Source: a virus. Taken from it: a DNA stretch of 20,941 bases. The notes beneath the pieces were generated by a model that worked only from the letters and a program-made list of their open reading frames with translations, did not search any database and was not told the origin of the DNA. A program made the position numbers and the translations under genes. The stretch spans positions 1-20,941 of IMG/VR virus record IMGVR_UViG_3300020469_002881; one strand, 5' to 3'. Positions within the stretch are counted from its first letter, which is position 1, and each line of letters starts with the position of its first letter. Of the stretch, positions 1-14,172 are shown piece after piece.

Positions 1-3000
1 GTAGATGGATCGGTTGTTGCCACAGGTACAGCGGGCAGTATGGTGTTTCACACATTTACACAAGTGCATGATGGCGGGATTGGCTTTTGGATTAAAGACA
101 ATGGTCTTAGTGAGATTGTTTCTTGCTTTACTTACTATAATGATTACGGATATGTCGCAACAGGCGGCGGTAAGATTCGTGCATTAAACGGAAATAACAG
201 TTATGGTACTTACGGCGCATTAAGTGCTGGATTTGCATCAGACGAAGTGCCACTAAGTGGATATATGTATGGTGATACTGTAGAATACACAGCAAGTACG
301 TTAACCACACCAGACGGATTTACAGTTGGAGATGTAATTACATACGGAAGCGATGCATCCGTAGCAATTACCAGTGTATCAAATGAACAACAATGTACGA
401 TTGTAACAAGTGGTGCTCACGGACTAGCAGAAGGCGATCCGATTGCATTTGGTGGTGTTAGTCCTGTAGCATGGCAACAACTACTAGGTAGTCATAGTAC
501 AGCAAGCATGTACAACAGAACTTGGTATGCAGATGTTGTTGATTCAACAACTTTTAGAATATGTACCAATTCAGACTTAACAACCTACTTTGACACAAGA
601 AGTGTAGCAGGCTGGGGAATTGTTACCGAAACAATCAGTGATGCTACTCGTGCTAATCCTGTGGTTGTAACAATGTCAGGGCATGGATATTCAAACGGTG
701 ATCTAGTACAGAATATAAGTAGTATTGCTGGAATGACACAGTTGAACGGAAACAGTTATTATGCAAACAATGTTACAGCTAATACAGTTGAACTATACAG
801 TGATGCAGGATTAACAACTACACTAGACGGTACAGGATATACTGCGTATACTAGTGGTGGTACTGCTGAAAGAGTATTAACAGGTACTGCATTTGGCGGA
901 GGCAACATACTTTCATTTAAAATAACTGCTGAAGTAGCTAATATTCAAACAAACTTAAATCCAGCAACCAAACACAGACTGGTATTAAACGAACTACAAA
1001 AAGGATATACAGGACAAACGTTTAAAGTTCATGTACAAAATACAGGAGACGGAAACAAATATTGGTTTGATGGACAAGAACTTCCGTCACTTAAATTAGA
1101 TACAAAACATAGAATGTATATCTTCGAACAAAATGATATAACAAATAATGGACACCCACTTTACTTTAGTACTACACCTGACGGAACACATGGCGGCGGC
1201 GCAGAATATAATCCTACTAAAGATGCCGCAACAGGTCTTAGTGGTAATGCTGTTGAATATTACTTGGATGGCGTTAAACAAGCATCACTAGCAGACTATA
1301 ACACTGGATTTAATGCCGCAACTAGTAGAGAAGTTTGGGTTGTAGGTGCTACAGCTGACTTATATGTAGCATGTGTGAATCATCCTGGTATGGGAGGTAC
1401 AACACCTTATACCACTAGTGACGCAACTTATGAAGCTTCAACTGGTATTGCAGTATTAACTATTGGAACACACAGTTTAGTAGCAGGCGACTTTGTACAT
1501 CTTGGAACTGATAGTTTAACATTTACATGCTCGCAAGATTCAAATGCAACAAACCATACATATCCTAGAAATACTGACCCTGCAAATACAAGTTGGTATG
1601 TAAAAATAATTGATGTAGGACTAACTACAATTACAGTAAATGTTGGAGTTTCTCCTAGTGGACAGCAATATACTCATAGTTTTGTAAGTGCTACTTCTAA
1701 CAATGTGCAAGCATATACATCAAATATCTTAATTGATTATACAACTACAACACAACATGATACTACAGATGCATTTAGAGAAAGATTTTTTGGTATATAT
1801 AGATACCCATTTGCAAATAACACAACTATTACTGCACAAGACGGTCAAAGTGCTACGCTATTAACTGTAGATGCAAACCAAGGACAGTTTGGATTTGCAC
1901 TAGTATTAGCAGGACTACCAGAAATACCTAGAGCAGGTGCTAGTATTGAGTTTATAACTAATACAACATATAATCCTGCAGATAATGCAGATATTACAAC
2001 AGATGCTAATTATGGTGCTGATACATTAACATACATTATTACAGCGGTAAGTGGATATACGCAAACACAAGATCCGACACTTAAAGGTACTTGTACAGTT
2101 ACACTAGCTACAGAAAAACAAAATACTAGTGCAACATATTATGGACAAAAGTTTAAAATTAGATACAAATATAGCCAAGTACGATTAACAGGACATGACT
2201 TTTTGAGTATTGGTACAGGTGGTAGATCAACTACCAATTATCCTGGAGAACCAACACAAGCGGCGTCACAAGGTAACGAAGTTACAGAGACTTATCCAGG
2301 TCGTGTTTACTATGTAAGTACAGACCAAGATGGTAACTTTAGAGTTGGTAGTTACTTCAGAGTTGACCAAGCTACAGGTAGAGCTACATTGGATGCTAGT
2401 GCATTTGATCTAGCAGGTCTTACAAGTTTGAGATTGGGTAGTATCGGTGCTCAGTTAGGTGAATCAATTAACGAATTTAGTAGTGACGGTACACTTAGTG
2501 GAAACAGTAACTTGTCTGTTCCAACAGAACAAGCTGTCAAAACTTATGTAGATTCAAAGACTGGTACAAACATTGACACAGTTGGTACGATAACCAGTGG
2601 TACACTAGGTGATGGAGCCGCGATAGGTACTGTCACAACAAGTTTAGGTAGTGATGCAACAGGAGATGTTTTCTATAGAAATGCAGGCGGTAAACTTACA
2701 AGACTAGGAATTGGTAATGCCGCTGAATCATTGACTGTATCTGCTGGTGGAATACCAGAATGGGCGGCGGCTTCAGGTGGATATTCATATGAAGTTAAGA
2801 GTACAAGTTTTACTGCGGCAAGCGGGAGTGCATATCTAGTAGATACTTCATCTGCAGTCACTGTAACATTGCCAGCTAGTCCGAGTGCAGGAGACTTTTT
2901 AATGATTATTGACGGCACTGGCACAGCTGATTCAAATAATATTACAGTAGCCAGAAACGGTAGTGTTATACACCGCAAAGATGATGATATGGAAATCGAT

Positions 3001-3072
3001 TTTGGTGAAACTTCACTAGAGCTTGTTTATATGGATGCTGACAACGGTTGGGTTATTACGAATCTAGTATAA
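1..3072 (+). CDS. Large modular tail-fibre/virion structural protein, 5'-truncated by the window edge
   Basis: The frame is open from base 1 to the TAA at 3070-3072, so at least 1023 residues are present and the true start lies upstream; the Met at base 40 is only the first internal Met. Reading from the N-terminal side, there are beta-rich modules of the E1-FCCH-like kind ('HGYSNGD...LNGNSYY...GGTAERV', about bases 655-885), then a cupredoxin-like segment (about bases 1000-1400) with His at 1153 and a C-x2-H-x2-M motif at 1372-1392. A module with 'LTFTC...NHTYPRNTDP' (about 1420-1730) and a region around 2330-2560 ('FRVDQATGRATLDASAFDL', 'LGSIGAQLGE', 'VPTEQAVKTYVD') follow. The last ~95 residues ('VTVTLPASPSAGD...NNITVARNG') form a compact C-terminal beta domain. 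From memory, the 'VDQATG...LGSIGAQLGE' and C-terminal modules are typical of T4-like cyanophage and other marine phage fibre or baseplate proteins. The exact virion position is inferred. Confidence 0.85.
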   Translation, partial: VDGSVVATGTAGSMVFHTFTQVHDGGIGFWIKDNGLSEIVSCFTYYNDYGYVATGGGKIRALNGNNSYGTYGALSAGFASDEVPLSGYMYGDTVEYTASTLTTPDGFTVGDVITYGSDASVAITSVSNEQQCTIVTSGAHGLAEGDPIAFGGVSPVAWQQLLGSHSTASMYNRTWYADVVDSTTFRICTNSDLTTYFDTRSVAGWGIVTETISDATRANPVVVTMSGHGYSNGDLVQNISSIAGMTQLNGNSYYANNVTANTVELYSDAGLTTTLDGTGYTAYTSGGTAERVLTGTAFGGGNILSFKITAEVANIQTNLNPATKHRLVLNELQKGYTGQTFKVHVQNTGDGNKYWFDGQELPSLKLDTKHRMYIFEQNDITNNGHPLYFSTTPDGTHGGGAEYNPTKDAATGLSGNAVEYYLDGVKQASLADYNTGFNAATSREVWVVGATADLYVACVNHPGMGGTTPYTTSDATYEASTGIAVLTIGTHSLVAGDFVHLGTDSLTFTCSQDSNATNHTYPRNTDPANTSWYVKIIDVGLTTITVNVGVSPSGQQYTHSFVSATSNNVQAYTSNILIDYTTTTQHDTTDAFRERFFGIYRYPFANNTTITAQDGQSATLLTVDANQGQFGFALVLAGLPEIPRAGASIEFITNTTYNPADNADITTDANYGADTLTYIITAVSGYTQTQDPTLKGTCTVTLATEKQNTSATYYGQKFKIRYKYSQVRLTGHDFLSIGTGGRSTTNYPGEPTQAASQGNEVTETYPGRVYYVSTDQDGNFRVGSYFRVDQATGRATLDASAFDLAGLTSLRLGSIGAQLGESINEFSSDGTLSGNSNLSVPTEQAVKTYVDSKTGTNIDTVGTITSGTLGDGAAIGTVTTSLGSDATGDVFYRNAGGKLTRLGIGNAAESLTVSAGGIPEWAAASGGYSYEVKSTSFTAASGSAYLVDTSSAVTVTLPASPSAGDFLMIIDGTGTADSNNITVARNGSVIHRKDDDMEIDFGETSLELVYMDADNGWVITNLV

Positions 3073-3074
3073 AT

Positions 3075-3082
3075 GATAAATA
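3075..3082 (+). promoter_or_regulatory. T4-type late promoter (GATAAATA)
   Basis: GATAAATA matches the T4 late-promoter core TATAAATA in seven of eight positions. With T4 geometry (core at -13 to -6) transcription would start at A3088 and give a 21-base leader containing AAGG (3097-3100) eight bases before the ATG at 3109. An overlapping weaker copy, TATAAATG, lies at 3068-3075. This is the only one of the five ATAAATA sites that leaves room for a normal ribosome binding site. Confidence 0.5.
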
Positions 3083-3108: not shown

Positions 3109-4077
3109 ATGGCAAGTATAAAAGATTTTTTTGCATCAAGCAGTTCTAATGTTGATACAGTCAGAACTACACATGGAACTTCGGGACAATGTTATCTGTT
3201 AGGCTGTGGTAGCTGGTGTTGCATGTGTTTACCAAGTAGTGCAACTACCTGGACTATGGAATCATGGGGACAAGGCGGCGGCGGACCAGGCAACTGTTGT
3301 TGTATGTGGGGCTGTCAAGGCGGAGCCGGATCAGACTATGCATATAGTGATTGGTCAAGCTGGAGTTGCGGTACTGCTCAAATGTGGTGTAACTGTACAT
3401 GCATGTGTTTCTGTTGTTCACCCGGTAACGGAGCACAACCAGGACAGTTTAGTAGAATGAACAACTGTACAGCCAGTTGGTTTGGATGTGTTGGGGGAGG
3501 TACCCAAGGATATGGTTGTTGTAACTATGGTGGAACAACAAGTTATCTAGGTGACATAAACAGAGAGCAAAATCCTTATGCCACCAGTAGTGGCGGAGGT
3601 GGTTCAAGCGGAACTGCAACAAATATTACAGGACTTGTAAATATTGATTGTGATTGTTGGCATTCTAATTGTACTGCTCAAGGTAATCCATATACAAACT
3701 GGGCTTCCCAATCAAGCGGTGGTGGTGGCGGAGGTGGTTCAAACTCCGACGGTTATTATCCACCAACAAGTGTAAACTGTACAAGTGGTATGTTTGTTAA
3801 CAGTTGTTATAATAATACTAAGTTTTGTGTAAGAGGATCATGTGGATGGTCTAATGCCAGTACGTGTGATGTTAACTGTGTACTAGGTGCTGGCGGATCA
3901 AGCTATGGCGGTGGATTTGTTCAGTGTAAATGTAGCCAGCCAGGTAACTGGGCTTATACAGGATGTCCAGGCAAAGCACCAGGAGGTGGAGCATCTAGTT
4001 CAGGCGCATGTGGCGGCGGATGTTGCTGTGGTGGCGTTGGTGCAGTAGGCGCTATATTAATGAGTTGGGATAACTAA
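3109..4077 (+). CDS. Glycine- and cysteine-rich putative tail-tip/adhesin protein
   Basis: This 322-residue protein has an extreme composition: I count 36 Cys (about 11%), about 65 Gly (about 20%) and many Trp, Ser and Asn. Cys occur in clusters (CCMC near residues 37-41, CCC near 62-64, CNCTCMCFCC near 94-103, CCC near 304-306) separated by Gly runs of up to seven. The start has a plausible ribosome site (AAAAGG, eight bases before ATG). The first ~25 residues are ordinary, and the C-terminus (GGVGAVGAILMSW) resembles the closing strand of glycine-rich phage adhesins. It sits between the fibre gene and an unidentified gene in the same direction, behind a late-type promoter. By context it is probably a fibre tip or receptor-binding protein, loosely like the Gly-rich gp38 adhesins of T-even phages. 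Disulphide bonding or metal binding by the Cys is possible but unproven. I know of no named family for it. Confidence 0.8.
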   Translation: MASIKDFFASSSSNVDTVRTTHGTSGQCYLLGCGSWCCMCLPSSATTWTMESWGQGGGGPGNCCCMWGCQGGAGSDYAYSDWSSWSCGTAQMWCNCTCMCFCCSPGNGAQPGQFSRMNNCTASWFGCVGGGTQGYGCCNYGGTTSYLGDINREQNPYATSSGGGGSSGTATNITGLVNIDCDCWHSNCTAQGNPYTNWASQSSGGGGGGGSNSDGYYPPTSVNCTSGMFVNSCYNNTKFCVRGSCGWSNASTCDVNCVLGAGGSSYGGGFVQCKCSQPGNWAYTGCPGKAPGGGASSSGACGGGCCCGGVGAVGAILMSWDN

Positions 4078-4078
4078 G

Positions 4079-4777
4079 ATGGCAACAAGTTTTACATATA
4101 AAAGTAGAAAAGTTTATCTTTCTACAGCAAATGAAGATAGTGATCTCAAAGATATAACTGGAAGCTATATAGGACCAAACGAAATACTACTTAGTGTAGC
4201 AGATGACGGTATCTATCAAATTTCTGAAATTCCAGCTACAGATGCCGATCTTGCTAACAAATCAGACATGGATCTTTATGGAGATGCTGACCCAGCTAAC
4301 CATAAATGGGTAGTATTATCAAAAGATGATGCAGATCAAATTGTTCTAATGGACATGATTATGAACTGTGCAGGTCATACTGATGAATGGCAAACTGAAG
4401 ACGTTCACACATGGACATTTGATGATGATACAACGTACAAAATGCAGTATAGAAATCCTGTAAATGACAACACAAGACACACATTTGATATGGATAAAAC
4501 TACAGTAGATCAAGATACTGGTAAACCTATTTTTGTAAGATTTGAGACATGGATGGAAAATGTTGAAGTTCAACGTGCAAGAGCTGAACAACAAAGGTTG
4601 TTCTATACAGAAAAGATGAACAATGCTATTTCAGCTACTACAAAAGCAAATTGGAAAAAAATGGTTGAAGTGTATGAACATATTGAATCAAGTTTGGTTG
4701 ATACAGTTCCAAATCACAAAATTGAATTTCCAATGCCAGGTGTTGTTTTACAAGGTAAAACATACGCAGATGGTTAA
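4079..4777 (+). CDS. Unidentified protein downstream of the tail-fibre genes
   Basis: The product has 232 residues and begins two bases after the previous stop, so translational coupling is likely. It is acidic overall, with many Asp in the first 140 residues. A central stretch is rich in Trp, Asp and Thr ('HTWTFDDDTTYKMQY'). A more helical part (about residues 150-205) carries 'ENVEVQRARAEQQRLFYTEKMNNA', split here only for description, with charged residues spaced as in a coiled coil. No signal peptide or membrane segment is visible and I do not recognise a family. Its place after a fibre gene and a putative adhesin suggests a fibre-assembly chaperone or a small virion protein, but only by position. 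Confidence 0.7.
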   Translation: MATSFTYKSRKVYLSTANEDSDLKDITGSYIGPNEILLSVADDGIYQISEIPATDADLANKSDMDLYGDADPANHKWVVLSKDDADQIVLMDMIMNCAGHTDEWQTEDVHTWTFDDDTTYKMQYRNPVNDNTRHTFDMDKTTVDQDTGKPIFVRFETWMENVEVQRARAEQQRLFYTEKMNNAISATTKANWKKMVEVYEHIESSLVDTVPNHKIEFPMPGVVLQGKTYADG

Positions 4778-4843: not shown

Positions 4844-5791
4844 ATGACAAAACGAAATACAGCTTTTTTCCTTAGTGGGGGAGCTGGTAGAATGCTTAGT
4901 GCAGTGCCAGCTTTAGAACTTTACGAACAAGAAAATCCAGATGATGACTTTGTAATAGTATGCGAAGGTACTTGGGAAATGTTCAGAGGACATTCTCTAC
5001 AAAAGAGATGTACCGGACCTGATTTACCACATTTGTTTACTGAAAAAATTAAAAATAGGAACTGTGTAACTACAGAGCCTTACAGAGTGTGGGAATATTA
5101 CAATCAAGAATGTAGTCTTAGACAAGCATTTGATATACAGATCAATAACAAAGGTGTCAGAGATGTGCCTGTACCTAATTTTTATCTAAGTTCAGACGAA
5201 GATGTAAAAGGCTATCATGCAGTTAAAGAAGGTAAAGAAAAAACAGGAAAAGAAAAGGCAATAGTATTACAGCCTTTTGGAAGAAGTTCACAGAATATCA
5301 AAGGCTTTGTATATGATGGTGGTGGCCGCAGTTTAGATATTATGGATACGATTGAACTTGTTAAAAAACTTAAAAAAGATTTTTGTGTGTTTATGATGAG
5401 TGAACATAAGATGAGTTCAGATGAAAACGAAGATTGGAAAGGTGTTGGACAACCAGACAACATCGACTTGCGTGGTTGGGCAGGTATTATCAATAACTGT
5501 GATCATCTAGTTGGCATCGATAGTGCAGGTCAACATATAGCTACTAGTTTAGGTATAAGTACCACAGTACTTTTTGGATCAACTTATCCTATTAATACAA
5601 GTTATCCAGACAATTCTAACGTAAAAATTATAGACTTTGATAAAGAAAAAAGAGGATATTCGCCTATTAGAATAGCTCATGACGATACTATTGAAAGACA
5701 AAATGATAAATGTTTAAAATTTGAAGACAAATACAGAGACATAAATGAAATAGTTAAAGCTATTAAAACTAAACTTGGAGTTAAAAAATAA
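4844..5791 (+). CDS. GT9-family (heptosyltransferase-like) glycosyltransferase
   Basis: The 315-residue protein shows the pattern of family 9 glycosyltransferases (ADP-heptose:LPS heptosyltransferases, WaaC/WaaF type). An N-terminal Rossmann segment has a Gly-rich turn ('SGGAGRMLSAVPAL', residues about 10-23). The C-terminal nucleotide-sugar site 'GIDSAGQHIATSLG' begins at residue 224 and continues to 'TTVLFGST', matching the family pattern D-[ST]-G/A-x-x-H-x-A...G-x-P-x-x-x-L-F-G. It is probably cytosolic or peripheral at the inner membrane face. The start is supported by GAGG four bases upstream and a promoter 30 bases further. It is first in a five-gene overlapping operon, and the window also encodes HldD and an HldE-like enzyme, so ADP-heptose is a reasonable donor; this is inference, as GT9 enzymes can differ in donor and acceptor. 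Confidence 0.75.
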   Translation: MTKRNTAFFLSGGAGRMLSAVPALELYEQENPDDDFVIVCEGTWEMFRGHSLQKRCTGPDLPHLFTEKIKNRNCVTTEPYRVWEYYNQECSLRQAFDIQINNKGVRDVPVPNFYLSSDEDVKGYHAVKEGKEKTGKEKAIVLQPFGRSSQNIKGFVYDGGGRSLDIMDTIELVKKLKKDFCVFMMSEHKMSSDENEDWKGVGQPDNIDLRGWAGIINNCDHLVGIDSAGQHIATSLGISTTVLFGSTYPINTSYPDNSNVKIIDFDKEKRGYSPIRIAHDDTIERQNDKCLKFEDKYRDINEIVKAIKTKLGVKK

Positions 5792-7680
5792 TGAAAGACA
5801 TTTGGGTCGCCGGAGTAAATCGAGGACATAATGCTGGTATCTGCTTACTTAAAAATGGTAAGTTAGTTTTTAGTAGTGAAGAAGAGCGTTATAGTAGACA
5901 AAAGTATGACGGCGCACCTCTTGGAAGTATAGTTAGATTACAAGAGTATACAGATAAATTAGATAGATTTGGTTTAGGTGGAACGTCACAACTAGTCAGA
6001 GGCGCAGAATCTCCATTTGTGGAATACAGTGGAGATAATATGTATCCTGCACTATTGAGAAAGTTAGGACTTTTACCAGGACCTACACAAGCTAATATGG
6101 AAGACTACGATCTGAAAGTACCAGGATCTCATCCACAAATAGATGACCATGGATTAGAACATCATAAATGTCATGCTTGGCTAGCTTTTAGTAAAAGTGG
6201 TTTCGATACTGCAACTGTGCTTGTTGCAGATGGCGCTGGTTCTTTTTTGCCTATTAGATCAGGTATTGCTTATGAAGCAAAAGGACATGAGGTAACTGGT
6301 TGGGAAGTCGAGTCTGTTTTCTTAGGAGATGCAAAAGCTGATGTTCCAATTAAAACTGTGTTTAAAAATATTGGTACTAGAGAAACAGTAGCAGGTTCTT
6401 GTTTTAACGCTTTATCATCCGGAGAAGGTTCTCCGTTGTTTATGAGAAATGAACCAGAAGATGGTGAACATGTTGTACTAGTACATGATCGAGCTGGTAT
6501 AGTGAAAGTTTATGAGGCAATTACTACACTACTTGGGTTTCCAAGTATCGAAGCTGGAAAGTTAATGGGACTTGCGCCTTATGGCAAATCTAATGAAAAT
6601 ATTAGAAGTTTTAGAGATTCTACTAATGATTTTTGGCCCTTGTCAAACAGAATGGCAATTATCCCAACGTATCCTAATTCTGGGCAATTAGGTTATACAC
6701 ATTTTATTCATATTTTACAAGAAATAAAAGATTTTGTAACTTTTGAAGATAGAACCAAATCGGAACTAGGAAGAGATTTTGCATATCATTGTCAAGAAGA
6801 AACACAACAGATGATGTTAGATGCTATTTTAAAAGCAGTTGAAACTACAGGTGATAAAAATGTAGTACTTACTGGTGGATATGCATTAAATTGTGTTGCT
6901 AATTATTGGTATTTAGATAAACTTAAAGAACACGATATTAACTTATATGTCGAACCAGTTAGTAATGATTCTGGGATCGCAATGGGAAGTGCATTATATA
7001 CTCATTGGCTAGAAACTAAAGAGTTTGTAAAATTAGAACCAACACTATATTTAGGTGAAAAGTATAATTATACTAATGAAGATATTAACAAAACTGCAAT
7101 TAAGTATGAAGCACAAGTTAAAGATGCTTCTCAAACAGATGTCGTAAACTTAATTAAAGATAAGAATATTGTAAGTATATTTCAAGGTAGAAGTGAAAAC
7201 GGTCCACGTGCATTAGGCAATAGAAGTATACTATATGATCCAAGAGATCCAGATGGTAAGGATCATGTAAACAAAGTTAAGAGAAGAGAATACTTTAGAC
7301 CATTTGCTGGTACTATACTAAAAGAACATGTACATGAATGGTTTGATCTTAAAGGCATGGAAGATACACCACATATGATGTATGCTGTAAATTGCCAACC
7401 AGGAGTTGAAGAAAAGATTCCGAGTATTATTCATGTTGATGGCACTTGTAGAATACAAACTGTTACTGAAGAAGAAAATGCTAATTATTATAATTTGATA
7501 CAGGAATGGTACAAACAAACAGGTTGTCCTGTAATTTTCAATACTAGTTTTAACTTAGGTGGCGAGCCGTTAGTTGAAACACTAGATGATGCTATAAGAA
7601 CACTGTCGAGCAGTGATATTGAATATTGTTACTTACCAGAGTTTGGTAAACTAATTTATTTGGAAAATAAAGATGACTGA
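5791..7680 (+). CDS. NodU/CmcH/TobZ-type O-carbamoyltransferase
   Basis: The 629-residue protein has both domains of the family. The N-terminal YrdC-linked/Kae1-like domain begins with 'HNAGICLLKNGKLVFSSEEE', followed by 'EHHKCHA' (123-129), which carries the conserved metal-binding His residues, and 'VADGAGS' (146-151). The C-terminal domain (about 460-625) has 'FQGRSENGPRALGNRSIL', 'YFRPFAG' and 'NTSFNLGGEP'. The family transfers a carbamoyl group from carbamoyl phosphate through a carbamoyl-adenylate to a hydroxyl of a sugar or related acceptor. Length is close to that usual for the family (about 550-630). ATG shares its A with the previous TAA (TAATG), so translation is coupled to the glycosyltransferase. 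From memory, such carbamoyltransferases recur in marine T4-like phages. The acceptor is unknown; a sugar added by this operon is the obvious candidate. Confidence 0.9.
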   Translation: MKDIWVAGVNRGHNAGICLLKNGKLVFSSEEERYSRQKYDGAPLGSIVRLQEYTDKLDRFGLGGTSQLVRGAESPFVEYSGDNMYPALLRKLGLLPGPTQANMEDYDLKVPGSHPQIDDHGLEHHKCHAWLAFSKSGFDTATVLVADGAGSFLPIRSGIAYEAKGHEVTGWEVESVFLGDAKADVPIKTVFKNIGTRETVAGSCFNALSSGEGSPLFMRNEPEDGEHVVLVHDRAGIVKVYEAITTLLGFPSIEAGKLMGLAPYGKSNENIRSFRDSTNDFWPLSNRMAIIPTYPNSGQLGYTHFIHILQEIKDFVTFEDRTKSELGRDFAYHCQEETQQMMLDAILKAVETTGDKNVVLTGGYALNCVANYWYLDKLKEHDINLYVEPVSNDSGIAMGSALYTHWLETKEFVKLEPTLYLGEKYNYTNEDINKTAIKYEAQVKDASQTDVVNLIKDKNIVSIFQGRSENGPRALGNRSILYDPRDPDGKDHVNKVKRREYFRPFAGTILKEHVHEWFDLKGMEDTPHMMYAVNCQPGVEEKIPSIIHVDGTCRIQTVTEEENANYYNLIQEWYKQTGCPVIFNTSFNLGGEPLVETLDDAIRTLSSSDIEYCYLPEFGKLIYLENKDD

Positions 7681-9194: not shown

Positions 9195-10089
9195 GAAACA
9201 AATTCCATTGGGACCTTGTCTTTGGGTATTTGGGGATAGTTATGTTTCTGAAGCAAATGCTCATTACAATTATACTAACAGATCTAATTGGGTATGGACT
9301 ACTCGACTGGCAAAAAAACTTGGTCTTAACAGATCTTGTGTTGTGGCTCAATATGGAGTTAGTAACGAATGGATTATGACTCAGATAAAAGGTTATAGAC
9401 ATCATATAAATCCAGAAGATATTGTAGTAATTGTTAGCAGTGGAATGGGCAGAAGATGGTTCTTTAAACATTCTCCTGAATTGTGTAATTTTGCGAGTTT
9501 ATGGAACACTGTATTAAATAGAAAAGAGTTTTGGAAACAGGAAAGATGGAAAGGCAAAGGTAAACAAGTTCAAAAAGCAATAGATTATTATCTAACTTAC
9601 CTAGCAGATGAAAATGATATACTCGACAATACATACATGGAAATGTTCTTGGCATGGTGTTATCAAGCTCAGCAGTGGGGGCAATGGAGAAACATGATTT
9701 TACTAGCTGGGTTTGAAGCAATGCCATTACACTCTGGCAATTCAATAGAAGCCAGTCTATTTGATATCGACGGAGACGAAATAGATAAAGATAGTATTAA
9801 ACACAAACAAAAATTCCTAAATCATTATGATTTTCAAGATCCTAGAATAATGCACCTAAGTAGACCAAATCACGAAATTATGGCACAAAAGCTATATGAA
9901 AATATTGTAAATGATACTCCTCTAGACTTTACTACTGGATTTGAAAAAAATCTCTACTTAGACGAAAGCACATGGAAAACTCCTCTTTTATCTGAAGATG
10001 AGGTTAACTTCGGTAGTGAAACTATAACTTTACACAACTGGATAGCAGGAAGAGATAAAGATATATTTGCTCAGAAAAATAGTTTTTAA
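9187..10089 (+). CDS. SGNH/GDSL-like hydrolase
   Basis: From GTG at 9187 the protein has 300 residues. I prefer this start because AGGAG (9173-9177) lies nine bases upstream; a TTG at 9166 would add seven residues but has no such site. The N-terminus has 'WVFGDSYV' with the block I GDS (residues 16-18, S18 the putative nucleophile). Next come 'QYGVSNEWI' (block II-like Gly) and 'IVVIVSSGMGR'. Near residue 230 'MHLSRPNHEIMAQKL' resembles the terminal H-x-N-x-x-(G)H-x-x-MA block that supplies the catalytic His. The canonical DxxH is not clear, so activity is less sure than the fold. Such enzymes often add or remove acyl groups from glycans, which fits a five-gene glycan operon of which this is the last member. 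It overlaps the cupin by eight bases and meets pcyX tail to tail. Confidence 0.65.
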   Translation: MSEKQIPLGPCLWVFGDSYVSEANAHYNYTNRSNWVWTTRLAKKLGLNRSCVVAQYGVSNEWIMTQIKGYRHHINPEDIVVIVSSGMGRRWFFKHSPELCNFASLWNTVLNRKEFWKQERWKGKGKQVQKAIDYYLTYLADENDILDNTYMEMFLAWCYQAQQWGQWRNMILLAGFEAMPLHSGNSIEASLFDIDGDEIDKDSIKHKQKFLNHYDFQDPRIMHLSRPNHEIMAQKLYENIVNDTPLDFTTGFEKNLYLDESTWKTPLLSEDEVNFGSETITLHNWIAGRDKDIFAQKNSF

Positions 10090-10754
10090 ACCTCAGGAAA
10101 CAAGCACTCTTCAATAAAGTGTTTAATAGCAACAGGATCAAGTCCTAGTGCTTCCATAGCCTTAGGTGTATGTGGATTTTGTTTTTGATAATGACAATAT
10201 CTGTTTTGCTGATCTTTTATTAAACCTTGGTTATATTGAGCTTTTGTATATTTAGGTAGCTCTTCAAAGTACATGTCTAGGTTATCTAATGCCATAGTAA
10301 CAACCTGATCCATTTCGTCTGCTTTTACATTGCTTGCGGCTACCATATGTTTGCTGAATATTGCTTGAGCCCACGGAGGTAGTTCACGTTGTTTTTTCCA
10401 TTCTAAATCTTCTACACAATCTCTAAACAATAAACACATAGGATGATGCCAATCTACTGTAGGGGAATAGTCATGGAAAGCACCAGTAACTTTGTTTTTA
10501 CCTGCAATAATATCAAACCCATATATAGGTGCATCATTGTCAAAGTTTGGAAACACACATATATGAGTCATATACAACCCTTTTGAATCTCTAGCATCTA
10601 CACTGTCTATATGAGCTCGTCTAAAATGATCTCCTTTGAATACTCTGTTTAACCAATCAAACTCTGGATCGTCAAAATTTTCTTTGCCTAAACTAGCACA
10701 TTTTGCAATAATCTTTTGTTCGCAATCAATAAGTTTATCCCATATTTCGCTCAT
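10086..10754 (-). CDS. pcyX: Ferredoxin-dependent bilin reductase, PcyX-like
   Basis: The 222-residue protein carries the signature of the ferredoxin-dependent bilin reductases (PcyA/PebS/PcyX family). Seen motifs are 'YMTHICVFPNFDNDAPIYGFD' broken as YMTHICVFPN (61-70) and APIYGFD (75-81), 'FHDYSPT' (93-99) with D95 at the place of the family's catalytic Asp, 'LPPWAQAIFS' (125-134) and 'YCHYQKQNPHT' (186-196). These enzymes reduce biliverdin IXa with electrons from ferredoxin. From memory, PcyX is a phage-borne form that makes phycoerythrobilin and comes from phages of presumed alphaproteobacterial hosts. Exact product cannot be read from sequence, and PebS or PcyA activity is an alternative. 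The ATG overlaps the hemA stop (ATGA), so the two are translationally coupled. No heme oxygenase, which would supply biliverdin, is in this window. Confidence 0.85.
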   Translation of the reverse strand: MSEIWDKLIDCEQKIIAKCASLGKENFDDPEFDWLNRVFKGDHFRRAHIDSVDARDSKGLYMTHICVFPNFDNDAPIYGFDIIAGKNKVTGAFHDYSPTVDWHHPMCLLFRDCVEDLEWKKQRELPPWAQAIFSKHMVAASNVKADEMDQVVTMALDNLDMYFEELPKYTKAQYNQGLIKDQQNRYCHYQKQNPHTPKAMEALGLDPVAIKHFIEECLFPEV

Positions 10755-11935
10755 AATACTTCCTCTAATCGTTCTGCAAGATCCGAAATCATTGCGTTGC
10801 TGTGCATTGGTGTTGGTGCAAATCTTAAACGTTCTGTGCCTTCTGGCACAGTTGGATAGTTAATTGGCTGTACATAAATGTTGTGATCATTTAGTAATGT
10901 ATCACTTATTTGTTTACAACGTACAGGATCTCCAACTATAACAGGAACAATATGTGTATCATTTTCTATCATGTTTATGTCTTTGTGTCTTAGTATTTTC
11001 TTTAGTCTTGTTGCACGATTTTGATGTTGTTCACGCAGTTCAACTCCATGCTCACTACGCAAATATTTTATACTACTCAATGCTCCTGCACATATAACCG
11101 GACTCATGCTGGTGGTAAAAATAAAACCACTTGCTACACTTCTAATTGCATCTATAGCAACATCATCTCCGGTGACATAGCCTCCTTGGCAACCAAATGC
11201 TTTGCCCAGTGTACCATTTACAAAGTCTACACGATCCTGTAATCCAAGTAGTTCTAAGTAACCAGCACCAGTAGCGCCATATAATCCAACAGCATGTACC
11301 TCATCACAATATGTGATAGCTTGATATTCTTCAGCAAGTGCGACTATATCTTTTAGCTTGCTAGTATAACCGTCCATGCTGTATACACTTTCAAACACAA
11401 TACAAGCTGTGCCTTGTACTTGGGCTAGTGCTTGCTCTAAGCTATTCATGTCGTTGTGTTCAAATACATGTTTAGGTGCACCACTGTGTCTAATGCCTTG
11501 TATAAGACTAGCGTGATTTTTGCTATCACTTACAAATTCAATGTCTTTTACTATTTTACTAAGTGCAATTAGTGTCCATTCATTGGCAACATAAGCACTG
11601 GAGTATAACAAAGACGACGGTTTGTTGTGTAATTTCGACAGTTCGTATTCTAATGCAACATGATAATGACTGGTACCTCCGATGTTTCTAGTACCTCCAC
11701 TGCCTGCTCCGGTTTGATTAAGTGCAGTGTGCATTGCATCTAATACAACTTTGTGTTGACCCATGCCCAGGTAATCATTGCTACACCAGTTAACAATGTT
11801 TTTTATATTGTAAGGACCGTAATAGATTGCTTGTGGATATTCTCCGCGTTCTCTGAGTATGTCGTTGAATACTCTGTAATTTCCACTACTCTTTAAGTTG
11901 TTTACAATGTCCTGAAATTTGTTTTTGTCTATCAT
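10751..11935 (-). CDS. hemA: 5-Aminolevulinate synthase (Shemin pathway)
   Basis: From ATG at 11935 the protein has 394 residues and aligns end to end, from memory, with Rhodobacter capsulatus HemA. It begins MIDKNKFQDIV, like MDYN... starts of the family; a longer ORF reaching 11980 adds 15 residues without homology. Motifs are 'WCSNDYLGMGQH', 'TGAGSGGTRNIGGTSHYH', 'NHASLIQGIRHSG' (from 140), 'DEVHAVGLYG' (from 211), 'NGTLGKAFG' with PLP Lys near 245, and 'YVQPINYPTVPEGTERLRF'. The enzyme condenses glycine and succinyl-CoA to 5-aminolevulinate, the first tetrapyrrole precursor, using PLP. The SGGTRNI and PTVPEGTERLRF motifs favour ALAS over the related BioF and KBL enzymes. It follows a 61-residue ORF, overlapping it by 50 bases, and overlaps pcyX by four. 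Transcription is probably from the late promoter at 12077-12084. Confidence 0.93.
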   Translation of the reverse strand: MIDKNKFQDIVNNLKSSGNYRVFNDILRERGEYPQAIYYGPYNIKNIVNWCSNDYLGMGQHKVVLDAMHTALNQTGAGSGGTRNIGGTSHYHVALEYELSKLHNKPSSLLYSSAYVANEWTLIALSKIVKDIEFVSDSKNHASLIQGIRHSGAPKHVFEHNDMNSLEQALAQVQGTACIVFESVYSMDGYTSKLKDIVALAEEYQAITYCDEVHAVGLYGATGAGYLELLGLQDRVDFVNGTLGKAFGCQGGYVTGDDVAIDAIRSVASGFIFTTSMSPVICAGALSSIKYLRSEHGVELREQHQNRATRLKKILRHKDINMIENDTHIVPVIVGDPVRCKQISDTLLNDHNIYVQPINYPTVPEGTERLRFAPTPMHSNAMISDLAERLEEVL

Positions 11936-12071
11936 GATATTCTTTATACATTTCTTTATCAACATATGTGTAGGATCCAAACCACGTGCTTATTGTAAAG
12001 TATCCCATTTCATTCATTTCTTTGGTAGTTGAGTTACAGTCTTTGATCCATTCTTTGATGTACTTTAACAT
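11886..12071 (-). CDS. Small protein preceding hemA
   Basis: The ATG at 12071 opens a 61-residue ORF (MLKYIKEWIKDCN...). It lies exactly five bases after the late-promoter octamer TATAAATA and has no Shine-Dalgarno sequence, as at three other late genes here; this favours 12071 over the longer 80-residue reading from 12128, which would begin upstream of the promoter. The peptide is charged and Trp/Tyr-containing ('STWFGSYTYVDKEMYKEYHD'), without a signal or membrane segment. From memory, similar small 'KEWxKDC...YVDKEMYKEY' proteins occur in other marine T4-like phages, with no known function. Its end overlaps the hemA start by 50 bases, which might couple hemA translation to it. It could instead be a leader ORF with no active product. 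Confidence 0.6.
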   Translation of the reverse strand: MLKYIKEWIKDCNSTTKEMNEMGYFTISTWFGSYTYVDKEMYKEYHDRQKQISGHCKQLKE

Positions 12072-12142: not shown

Positions 12143-13012
12143 ATGCATATCGTCACAGGTGCGGCTGGATTTATTGGAAGTAATTTAGTTGCTCATTTAA
12201 ACAAACAAGGACATGAAGATATCTTACTGGTAGATAATCTTTCTATGGATAAAACAAAAAATCTTGCATATTTACGTTTTGAAGATATGATAAGTCCTAG
12301 TGAACTATTAGAAGCAAATATAGATAAGAGCGATGTTGTATGGCATATAGGTGCGAATAGTAGTACAAAGGAAACAGATTGGAATAAGATATATTCTAGC
12401 AATGTGGCATATACAAGGCAACTAGTAAGCAAATGTAATACAATGGTATTTGCTAGTAGTGCCAGTGTTTATGGAGATAATATTACTACACAAGAGCACC
12501 CAGTTAATGAAGCTCCTAAAAATTTATATGCCAGTAGTAAGTTGATTTGTGACAATATTTTTAGAAATACTGTTGGTTGTAAAATACAAAGCTGGAGATT
12601 CTTTAATGTGTACGGTAATAGAGAAAGCCACAAACAATCTGTAGGCATGGGAAGTCCATATACAAACTTTATTAAACAAGCGAAAGACACAGGTGTTATA
12701 AAAATATTTGAAGGTAGTGAAAAAGTACAGCGTGATTTTGTATGCATTGATGATGTAGTACATGTTATGTATCAGTGTTTACAACACGACGAAAGTTTTA
12801 TTTGTAATCTTGGTACAAGTACTACATATACATTTGAATACTGGGCAAAGTTAATAGCAAGTCATTACAATGCTACTATTGAATATATACCAATTCCAGA
12901 TGACCTTAAAGGAATTTATCAAATGTACACATGTAGTGATAACAATCAATTGGATACACTTATTAATCACAACTTTAAATCTCCTGATCAATTTGTAGAG
13001 GAAAATTTGTGA
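12143..13012 (+). CDS. hldD: ADP-L-glycero-D-manno-heptose 6-epimerase (HldD-like)
   Basis: The 289-residue protein is an extended short-chain dehydrogenase with an N-terminal NAD(P) site 'GAAGFIGSN' (6-14), 'ASSASVYG' (104-111) and the catalytic Y129-x3-K133 pair ('LYASSK'). HldD-specific stretches, compared from memory with E. coli HldD (310 residues), are 'RFFNVYGNRESHKQS', 'IFEGSEKVQRDFV' and 'IEYIPIPDDLKGIYQ', of which the last is nearly diagnostic. The enzyme inverts C6 of ADP-D-glycero-D-manno-heptose to the L,D form used for LPS inner core. The start has AGGAG six bases upstream and a consensus promoter. It overlaps the hldE-like gene by four bases (GTGA). GmhA and GmhB, which make the earlier intermediates, are not in this window and may come from the host. 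Confidence 0.87.
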   Translation: MHIVTGAAGFIGSNLVAHLNKQGHEDILLVDNLSMDKTKNLAYLRFEDMISPSELLEANIDKSDVVWHIGANSSTKETDWNKIYSSNVAYTRQLVSKCNTMVFASSASVYGDNITTQEHPVNEAPKNLYASSKLICDNIFRNTVGCKIQSWRFFNVYGNRESHKQSVGMGSPYTNFIKQAKDTGVIKIFEGSEKVQRDFVCIDDVVHVMYQCLQHDESFICNLGTSTTYTFEYWAKLIASHYNATIEYIPIPDDLKGIYQMYTCSDNNQLDTLINHNFKSPDQFVEENL

Positions 13013-14172
13013 TTGTAGTAATAGGCGATATTATTATAGATGAATATGTTTATGGCACAAGCACACGGCTTAGTCCAGAAGCACCAGTACCTGTTGTAAA
13101 ACACGAAAAGACAGAACGTAAATTAGGCGGAGCAGGAAATGTTTACAATAACATAAAAAGCCTTACAGATGATGTAACCCTAATAGGTTATAGAAATGAC
13201 ACTACTGATTGGCCCGTAGAGCTGTTTTGCACACACATGCCACTAAAGCAAAGAATATATGCTGACAAACACTATATTACTAGGATTGATAGAGAACAAA
13301 CAATAGATAATAGTACATTGTTTGATTATGTTAAAAAACGTGTGCATAACTCTACAGTGGTAATAAGTGATTACAACAAAGGCACTATACAAGATTCGCA
13401 ACGTTTGATAAAAATACTTAAAGATAATAACTGTTATGTAATTGTCGACCCTAAACAACATTTAGATTTATATACAGGTGCTGATGTAATCAAACCTAAT
13501 AAAAAAGAATATGAAGAATATAATAATGGTGTTAAAACTGATATGGTTGTAACAATGGGTGCAGATGGCTATATGATAAATGGCGTACACTACCCAACGC
13601 AAAAACAAGATGTATATGATGTTACAGGTGCAGGTGATACATTTTTAGCAGTGATGTCATATTTTTTAGACTCGGGTGAAAGTTTAGAGTTTGCCTGTGA
13701 GATGGCTAACAAAGGTGCTGGTATAAGTGTACAACACAATGGTGTTTATGTGGTGCATTGGAAAGACTTGGATCCTCGCCCTACAGTTGTGTTTACAAAT
13801 GGTTGTTTTGATTTGTTACACAGAGGACATGTAGAAATGCTTAAAGCTAGTAAAGCACTCGGAGAGCATCTTGTAGTAGGGTTAAATACTGATTCTAGTG
13901 TCAAAAGATTAAAAGGTGACACTAGACCAATCAATAACGAAACTGATAGAAAAGTAGTACTTGAGAGTTTAGATTTTGTCGATGAAGTTATTTTATTTGA
14001 TGAAGATACACCACAACAATTAATAGAGAGAATACGACCTAACATTATAACCAAAGGTGGTGACTACACTGTTGATACTGTAGTTGGTAACGAGCTAGCT
14101 GAAGTTATAATTATACCAACTGTAGAAAATCAAAGCACTACAAATACAATAACCAAACTAAAAGCTGTCTAG
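13009..14172 (+). CDS. hldE: Bifunctional heptose kinase/cytidylyltransferase-fold enzyme (HldE-like, compact)
   Basis: The product has 387 residues from a GTG start, with AGAGGA six bases upstream and a GTGA overlap with hldD. Residues 1 to about 255 are a PfkB-type kinase: 'GDIIIDEYVYG', 'RLSPEAPVPVVK', 'KLGGAGNVYNN' and the catalytic GAGD at 207-210. The rest is a nucleotidyltransferase domain with 'FTNGCFDLLHRGH' (HxGH at 271-274), 'RLKGDTRPIN', 'FDEDTPQQLI', 'ITKGGDY' and 'STTNTI', all matching HldE. In E. coli HldE (477 residues) these domains phosphorylate D,D-heptose 7-phosphate at C1 and form ADP-heptose. The roughly 90-residue shortfall falls in the kinase half, so kinase function is a little less certain. 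It ends overlapping the Nudix gene tail to tail by 15 bases. Confidence 0.87.
   Translation: MIVVIGDIIIDEYVYGTSTRLSPEAPVPVVKHEKTERKLGGAGNVYNNIKSLTDDVTLIGYRNDTTDWPVELFCTHMPLKQRIYADKHYITRIDREQTIDNSTLFDYVKKRVHNSTVVISDYNKGTIQDSQRLIKILKDNNCYVIVDPKQHLDLYTGADVIKPNKKEYEEYNNGVKTDMVVTMGADGYMINGVHYPTQKQDVYDVTGAGDTFLAVMSYFLDSGESLEFACEMANKGAGISVQHNGVYVVHWKDLDPRPTVVFTNGCFDLLHRGHVEMLKASKALGEHLVVGLNTDSSVKRLKGDTRPINNETDRKVVLESLDFVDEVILFDEDTPQQLIERIRPNIITKGGDYTVDTVVGNELAEVIIIPTVENQSTTNTITKLKAV

Follow-up and report, generated by a model that had tools for sequence, protein, structure and literature searches.

In cyanophage Pam3, the virion tail fiber gp24 is a trimer that combines a beta (TNF-like) domain with a glycine-rich lattice of four layers, kept together by main-chain hydrogen bonds. 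Receptor binding is proposed to take place at the distal ends of gp24, which is assembled by gp25, a chaperone encoded by the adjoining gene (PMC9608196). Another arrangement is that of S16 gp38 (6F45) and T2-type gp38, in which a separate adhesin gene with glycine-rich motifs follows the tail fiber; S16 gp38 is a polyglycine sandwich for which a Cys clamp is not reported. Nearest by family to the protein considered here are products of cyanophages P-SSM2, S-CAM1, S-CAM3, and S-SSM7, assigned to PHROG 4205 and 35878, both of "unknown function." Our literature searches found no description of Cys-rich cyanophage adhesins.

The window analyzed here is a stretch of viral DNA of 20,941 nucleotides (IMG/VR record IMGVR_UViG_3300020469_002881, positions 1 to 20,941; features in Table 1). 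Directly downstream of the tail fiber ORF, an ORF with an ATG start encodes a protein of 322 aa with 36 Cys, 65 Gly, and 2 His. Its Cys content is 11.2%, compared to 1.1% (71 of 6,395 residues) in the 18 other window genes; at the rate of those genes, the binomial probability of at least 36 Cys is about 1e-24. The extreme Gly/Cys richness beside a tail fiber, which was the starting point of the original prediction, is therefore real. CCC occurs twice, at residues 63 to 65 and 305 to 307, and the C terminus reads GGVGAVGAILMSWDN. The protein looks unique because direct searches with it return nothing: it had no direct match in Pfam (E ≤ 1, including Gly_rich_2 [PF21722] and the gp38 adhesin family), PHROG, or NCBIfam, nothing useful by sequence in the phage collection or the PDB, and no relatives in a single-protein scan of IMG/VR. 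The PHROG 4205 profile did not match it either and matched its orthologue L003 weakly (E 0.022).

Table 1. Features of the adhesin locus, in window coordinates
Feature	Position	Strand	Basis
Upstream tail fiber, 5' end outside the window, 1,023 aa	1..3072	+	PHROG 9851 "tail fiber protein," E 4e-124
GATAAATA, T4-late-promoter-like octamer	3075..3082	+	Similar octamer in orthologues
Cys/Gly-rich protein, very probably a tail fiber adhesin, 322 aa, 36 Cys	3109..4077	+	Composition, orthologues, model, fold match
N-terminal motif MASIKDFF, possible fiber anchor	3109..3132	+	Invariant in 8 window-clade proteins
Residues 20-140, predicted beta/glycine-rich core with WGQGGGGPGNCCC and CxCxCxCxCC	3166..3528	+	pLDDT mostly 70-90
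CCC, residues 63-65	3295..3303	+	89/92/100% Cys over 36 diverse members
CNCTCMCFCC, residues 94-103	3388..3417	+	Sequence
Residues 140-280, insertion, mostly low confidence	3526..3948	+	pLDDT < 50; evolves faster
Residues 281-322, C-terminal Gly/Cys stretch PGGG...CGGGCCCGGVGAVG and predicted last core strand	3949..4074	+	Model, fold match
232-aa partner, probable tail fiber/adhesin assembly chaperone	4079..4777	+	Relatives match PF16778; beta + alpha-hairpin model
Glycosyltransferase-9-like protein, conserved cassette neighbor	4844..5791	+	Profile search, synteny
NodU/Nol-like carbamoyltransferase, conserved cassette neighbor	5791..7680	+	Profile search

The window protein does not stand alone: it belongs to a large unannotated superfamily, widespread in marine T4-like phages. 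With the neighboring 232-aa protein as the query, two contigs carrying full-length orthologues in the same slot were reached, and an alignment of these two with the window protein led to seven distinct orthologues besides it, 37 to 55% identical (L002, L003, L015=L016, L017, L018, L019, and L020; here, the window clade). The loci read share one gene order as far as the contigs reach: tail fiber, Cys/Gly protein, 232-aa protein, GT9-like protein, and carbamoyltransferase. Cyanophages with a related tail fiber have Gly/Cys-rich "hypothetical" genes downstream of it, encoding 24 to 36 Cys each. These are the PHROG 4205 and 35878 proteins, which resemble the window protein in genomic slot, motif order, and number of Cys but are only about 21 to 31% identical to it and usually come as two or three tandem paralogues (two in P-SSM2; three each in S-CAM1, S-CAM3, S-SSM7, and Sf-FS3). 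Profile-profile comparison (hhalign) linked the window clade to this cyanophage family at 97.5% (E 5e-12); a larger clade alignment scored 97.1%, whereas none of 14 controls (reversed, shuffled, or block-shuffled) exceeded 25.5%. The motifs W.VP..TFE.WGGGGGG and CGGG.CCG..G..G are aligned between the two.

The cyanophage alignment, used to scan IMG/VR, returned at least 277 relatives. The loci fetched held 199 distinct complete Cys/Gly-rich proteins, falling into 88 clusters at 60% identity, with 17 to 46 Cys, a range that is partly set by choice since the list was selected on composition (≥5% Cys, ≥10% Gly). A start like M-x-x-[LI]-[RK]-x-[LF]-[LF], related to the MASIKDFF of the window protein, is found in 49 of the 88 clusters. 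Three-gene arrays are the commonest arrangement (61 of 96 loci, near-identical contigs counted apart). The paralogues of such arrays (L021 to L048 and others, e.g., L021:1100-3897) keep a fixed order, with the starts MSSLRDLLD, MANLRGLLGKEF, and MPNTNLRDLLG; one can envision that they might form a hetero-trimeric tip or provide three alternative adhesins. The only Cys-poor relatives reached as a control family were of the Mosig type, with 0 to 4 Cys. Marine virus AG-345-P14 has in the same slot a Cys-rich protein of another layout (L008:5117-5965; 26 Cys in 282 aa), which gave no Gly_rich_2 match. Bacterial or prophage copies were not found in a narrow pattern test, with 0 relatives among 595 pattern matches in genome contigs.

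Across this family, the residue most strictly kept is cysteine. Within the window clade, 20 of the 36 window Cys are invariant across the seven orthologues (56%, the top share among abundant residues), compared to 48% for Gly and 12% for Ser. Cys was also the least substituted residue in 51 independent sister pairs (75 to 99% identity), at 1.7%, with Gly at 3.9%, Trp at 4.2%, Ser at 21%, and the non-Cys, non-Gly residues spanning 4 to 21%. Seven window positions (C64, C65, C127, C138, C183, C257, and C305) hold Cys in more than 90% of 36 diverse members. The worry attached to the original prediction, that no homologue might share the Cys pattern, thus did not materialize.

An extreme composition and the lack of a database match of its own could also mark an out-of-frame or spurious ORF. 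However, dN/dS lies between 0.04 and 0.33, well below 1, in ten sister pairs of relatives, and therefore the Cys/Gly genes are translated and constrained. With orthologues that are full length, equal in size, and syntenic and with the Cys conserved, there is practically no chance that the ORF is spurious, and we reject that explanation, in agreement with the earlier view that the frame is no artifact. In the two window-clade pairs examined, residues 140 to 280 evolved faster, with a dN of 0.205 versus 0.062 and 0.011 in the flanking core regions for L002/L003 and 0.132 versus 0.070 and 0.087 for L017/L018.

An AlphaFold model of the window protein was built with an alignment of 36 family members. 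Its overall pLDDT is 58; residues 20 to 140 and 281 to 322 reach about 70 to 90, and most of residues 140 to 280 fall below 50. The model matched the Pam3 tail fiber 7ypx (Z 15.3, 182 aligned residues, rmsd 3.2), followed at Z 11.8 by the tail tip of Bxb1 and at 7.8 to 9.2 by the glycine-rich domain of ALK/LTK, with the next rows at 4.0 or less. What it matches is the gp24-like beta core with its glycine-rich lattice; residues 140 to 280 lie outside the confident model. By Foldseek alone, the PDB matches were weaker (E 0.01 to 0.04), and BFVD gave 46 matches at E ≤ 0.001, of which the top was a S-CAM3 Cys-rich protein and the other named ones were mostly glycine-rich-domain proteins of phages and giant viruses. 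Among 36 aligned members, 17 match Gly_rich_2 (best 4.3e-10), and the window protein is tied to matching members by homology (hhalign, 97.5% and 97.1%). Gly-Gly spacing is enriched most at 1 and 3, which is the expectation for three-fold glycine-rich helices. Structure prediction was in line with glycine-rich strands in the core; a mere spacer-like matrix, as once suggested, suits neither the compact fold predicted nor the conservation of Cys.

Like Pam3 gp24 (7YPX/7YFW), the window protein has glycine-rich strands on a beta core and a chaperone-type gene next door. It differs in its short N-terminal helix, where gp24 has a long helical shaft of its own, in its long insertion at residues 140 to 280, and in the separate large tail fiber alongside; the account of gp24 makes no mention of cysteines or disulfides (PMC9608196), whereas the window protein has 36 Cys. 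The gp38 adhesins share with it the separate gene after the tail fiber and the glycine-rich motifs, and they would work in the same way if the adhesin interpretation is right. However, the window protein has no sequence match to gp38, and no three-helix N-terminal attachment domain of the gp38 type is visible in it; 6F45 was not among the fold-match rows, an absence that does not exclude likeness. The ALK/LTK receptor tyrosine kinase domain is extracellular and of the same kind of fold but is an animal receptor domain, with no sequence kinship shown to the window protein. Taken together, it is very likely that the window protein is a glycine-rich adhesin with its own chaperone. It is probably a virion component at or near the tail fiber tip with a role in receptor binding. 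Adhesins of this kind are already known; the Cys-studded variant is new.

The gene after a Cys/Gly gene encodes, in most loci, a Cys-poor protein that starts like KTFTYxxPDxYLxQT...TYxGP. Seven of 26 aligned members of the neighbor family match PF16778 (phage tail assembly chaperone; best 1.4e-11), and the window 4079-4777 protein itself has no direct match to PF16778 or elsewhere in Pfam. Its model (pLDDT 89) places strands within residues 3 to 127 and helices at 162 to 182 and 186 to 209, the layout reported for gp25, a beta part and then an alpha-helical hairpin (PMC9608196). A fold search with this model gave helical-hairpin matches only (Z up to 6.4), and neither of the solved chaperones, Pam3 gp25 and TfaMu, was matched. 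The relatives and the model argue strongly for a tail fiber/adhesin assembly chaperone, short of proof because no solved chaperone was matched by fold. The octamer upstream of the adhesin gene recurs as [GT]ATAAATA with similar spacing in orthologues L003, L015, L018, and L019. Upstream of array starts, the T4-late-promoter octamer TATAAATA was found exactly in 6 of 73 stretches, compared to 1.0 expected; its position, e.g., in L015 and L018, is about -35. The C-terminal domain of the window tail fiber (about 2761-3069) forms a small gene of its own, about 109 aa long, in both S-CAM1 and S-CAM3 (L005:8004-8333).

The conserved presence of a glycan-modifying cassette alongside might instead suggest a non-virion protein, such as a secreted or intracellular factor of the downstream cell-surface modification genes (glycosyltransferase, carbamoyltransferase). 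Neither virion proteomics nor binding data for any family member turned up in the literature searched. Still, with a tail fiber directly before and a tail-assembly-chaperone-type gene after in most loci, phage tail proteins as the best fold matches, and a T4-late-type octamer in the clade, we consider a non-virion role very unlikely.

What the cysteines do is approached here through their spacing and numbers. CC and CxC are in excess (z 18 and 7), and CxxC (k = 3 spacing) is not enriched (z 1.4). CxxC is the usual motif of zinc ribbons and many Fe-S sites; with no excess of it, standard Zn, Fe-S, or thioredoxin motifs are therefore not favored, which leaves metal as such in play. The numbers of Cys show no even bias (48 even and 40 odd in the 88 superfamily clusters), paired loss of Cys was not seen (differences of a single Cys are common in close relatives and separate 11 sister pairs), and Cys columns covary no more strongly than Gly or Pro columns. 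Given that none of these signals appears, not every Cys need be paired within the chain; partial pairing, bonds between subunits, as a trimer like that of Pam3 gp24 would allow, or metal could each apply. Of the "Cys-armoured receptor-binding tip" with polyglycine-like strands in the original prediction, then, the adhesin identity and the fold stand (Pam3 gp24, Gly_rich_2 relatives, fiber and chaperone context), but full pairing of the Cys is not favored by two weak tests, parity and single losses.

The same lack of even bias, paired loss, and special covariation would suit an ordinary Gly_rich_2 adhesin in which Cys is not crosslinked and serves as a small, mildly hydrophobic packing residue, and the Mosig relatives manage with few or no Cys. 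We find this unlikely: Cys is substituted less than any other residue, Gly and Trp included, the seven columns hold over very divergent members, and Ala or Ser could do the packing. Conservation of this strength demands that the thiols have a role.

One such role would be that of a metal-thiolate adhesin, with CCC and CxCxCxCxCC binding Cu, Zn, or Fe, either structurally or as bait for metal-uptake receptors. An iron-in-tail "Trojan horse" has been discussed for marine phages (PMC11705849). Reports of iron ions in HxH tail fiber motifs of T4, with a similar proposal for marine phages, would fit this reading, as would the dense CC and CxC runs and the tolerance of odd Cys numbers and single losses. 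However, CxxC is not enriched, His is scarce, and the Cys do not gather at one site but are distributed over the entire fold, so that we hold a metal-thiolate adhesin to be rather unlikely; the metal-cluster-bearing tip first suggested is less likely on the same grounds of CxxC and His. In a bolder version, which seems quite unlikely, the tip would be a multi-metal thiolate or free-thiol adhesin, its CCC and CxCxCxCxCC holding metal or reacting covalently with host-surface thiols, and adsorption would depend on metal or redox chemistry and not on shape alone.

A disulfide clamp formed after lysis is the simplest fit for the Cys conservation, and we would give it about an even chance. A search of 12 records for a phage-encoded Erv-type sulfhydryl oxidase found none, and its positive control was equally silent. 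The explanation that we favor as a whole, and consider reasonably probable, is a chaperone-assisted, Cys-clamped, glycine-rich receptor-binding adhesin that gains its cystines after release. We imagine that a short N-terminal anchor would seat the adhesin on the tail fiber, at or near its tip, where it would contact the receptor. Antiparallel glycine-rich strands would extend its beta core as a lattice, like that of Pam3 gp24, and its folding would be aided by the chaperone from the next gene. Conserved Cys located in these strands and at their ends could then clamp the lattice; they would be reduced in the cytoplasm during assembly and would most probably turn into cystines after virion release into oxygenated water. 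The oxidized lattice may serve as a rigid scaffold for variable receptor-contacting loops, with residues 140 to 280 as a fast-evolving insertion.

The cultured phages found with the adhesin family are cyanophages, whereas the gp15 of the window is nearest to that of jumbo T4-like phages, e.g., Sinorhizobium phage Phosso and Atu_ph07. On the minus strand, the window also encodes a 5-aminolevulinate synthase (10754-11980; TIGR01821, 542 bits, above the cutoff) and, adjoining it, a ferredoxin-dependent bilin reductase (10089-10754; PF05996). 5-Aminolevulinate synthase belongs to the heme route of alphaproteobacteria and not to that of cyanobacteria, and this heme/bilin pair points to a putative alphaproteobacterial host. 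psbA is present in the cultured cyanophages and was not seen in the contigs of eight short relatives, a weak absence in fragments. Since the gp15 kinship and 5-aminolevulinate synthase stand against cyanophage carriers, the tail fiber/adhesin cassette seems to move between phage lineages whose hosts differ. Elsewhere in the window, 12143-14172 encodes ADP-heptose epimerase-like and HldE-like (heptose kinase/adenylyltransferase) proteins, which are lipopolysaccharide inner-core precursor functions; L002 and L003 carry relatives of the HldE-like gene in the same neighborhood.

Adhesins set host range, and marine T4-like phages are among the commonest viruses in the sea; the adhesins of these phages are largely unassigned. 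A couple of hundred "hypothetical" Cys/Gly-rich genes are here tied to one adhesin fold with its own chaperone. It is unexpected, in a protein assembled inside a reducing cell, that Cys should be the most conserved residue, and the proposal predicts tips that mature after release by oxidation or metal binding. If it is true, these phages would have found a way to produce a cystine-dense protein despite a reducing cytoplasm, and the redox state or trace metals of the water could affect infectivity.
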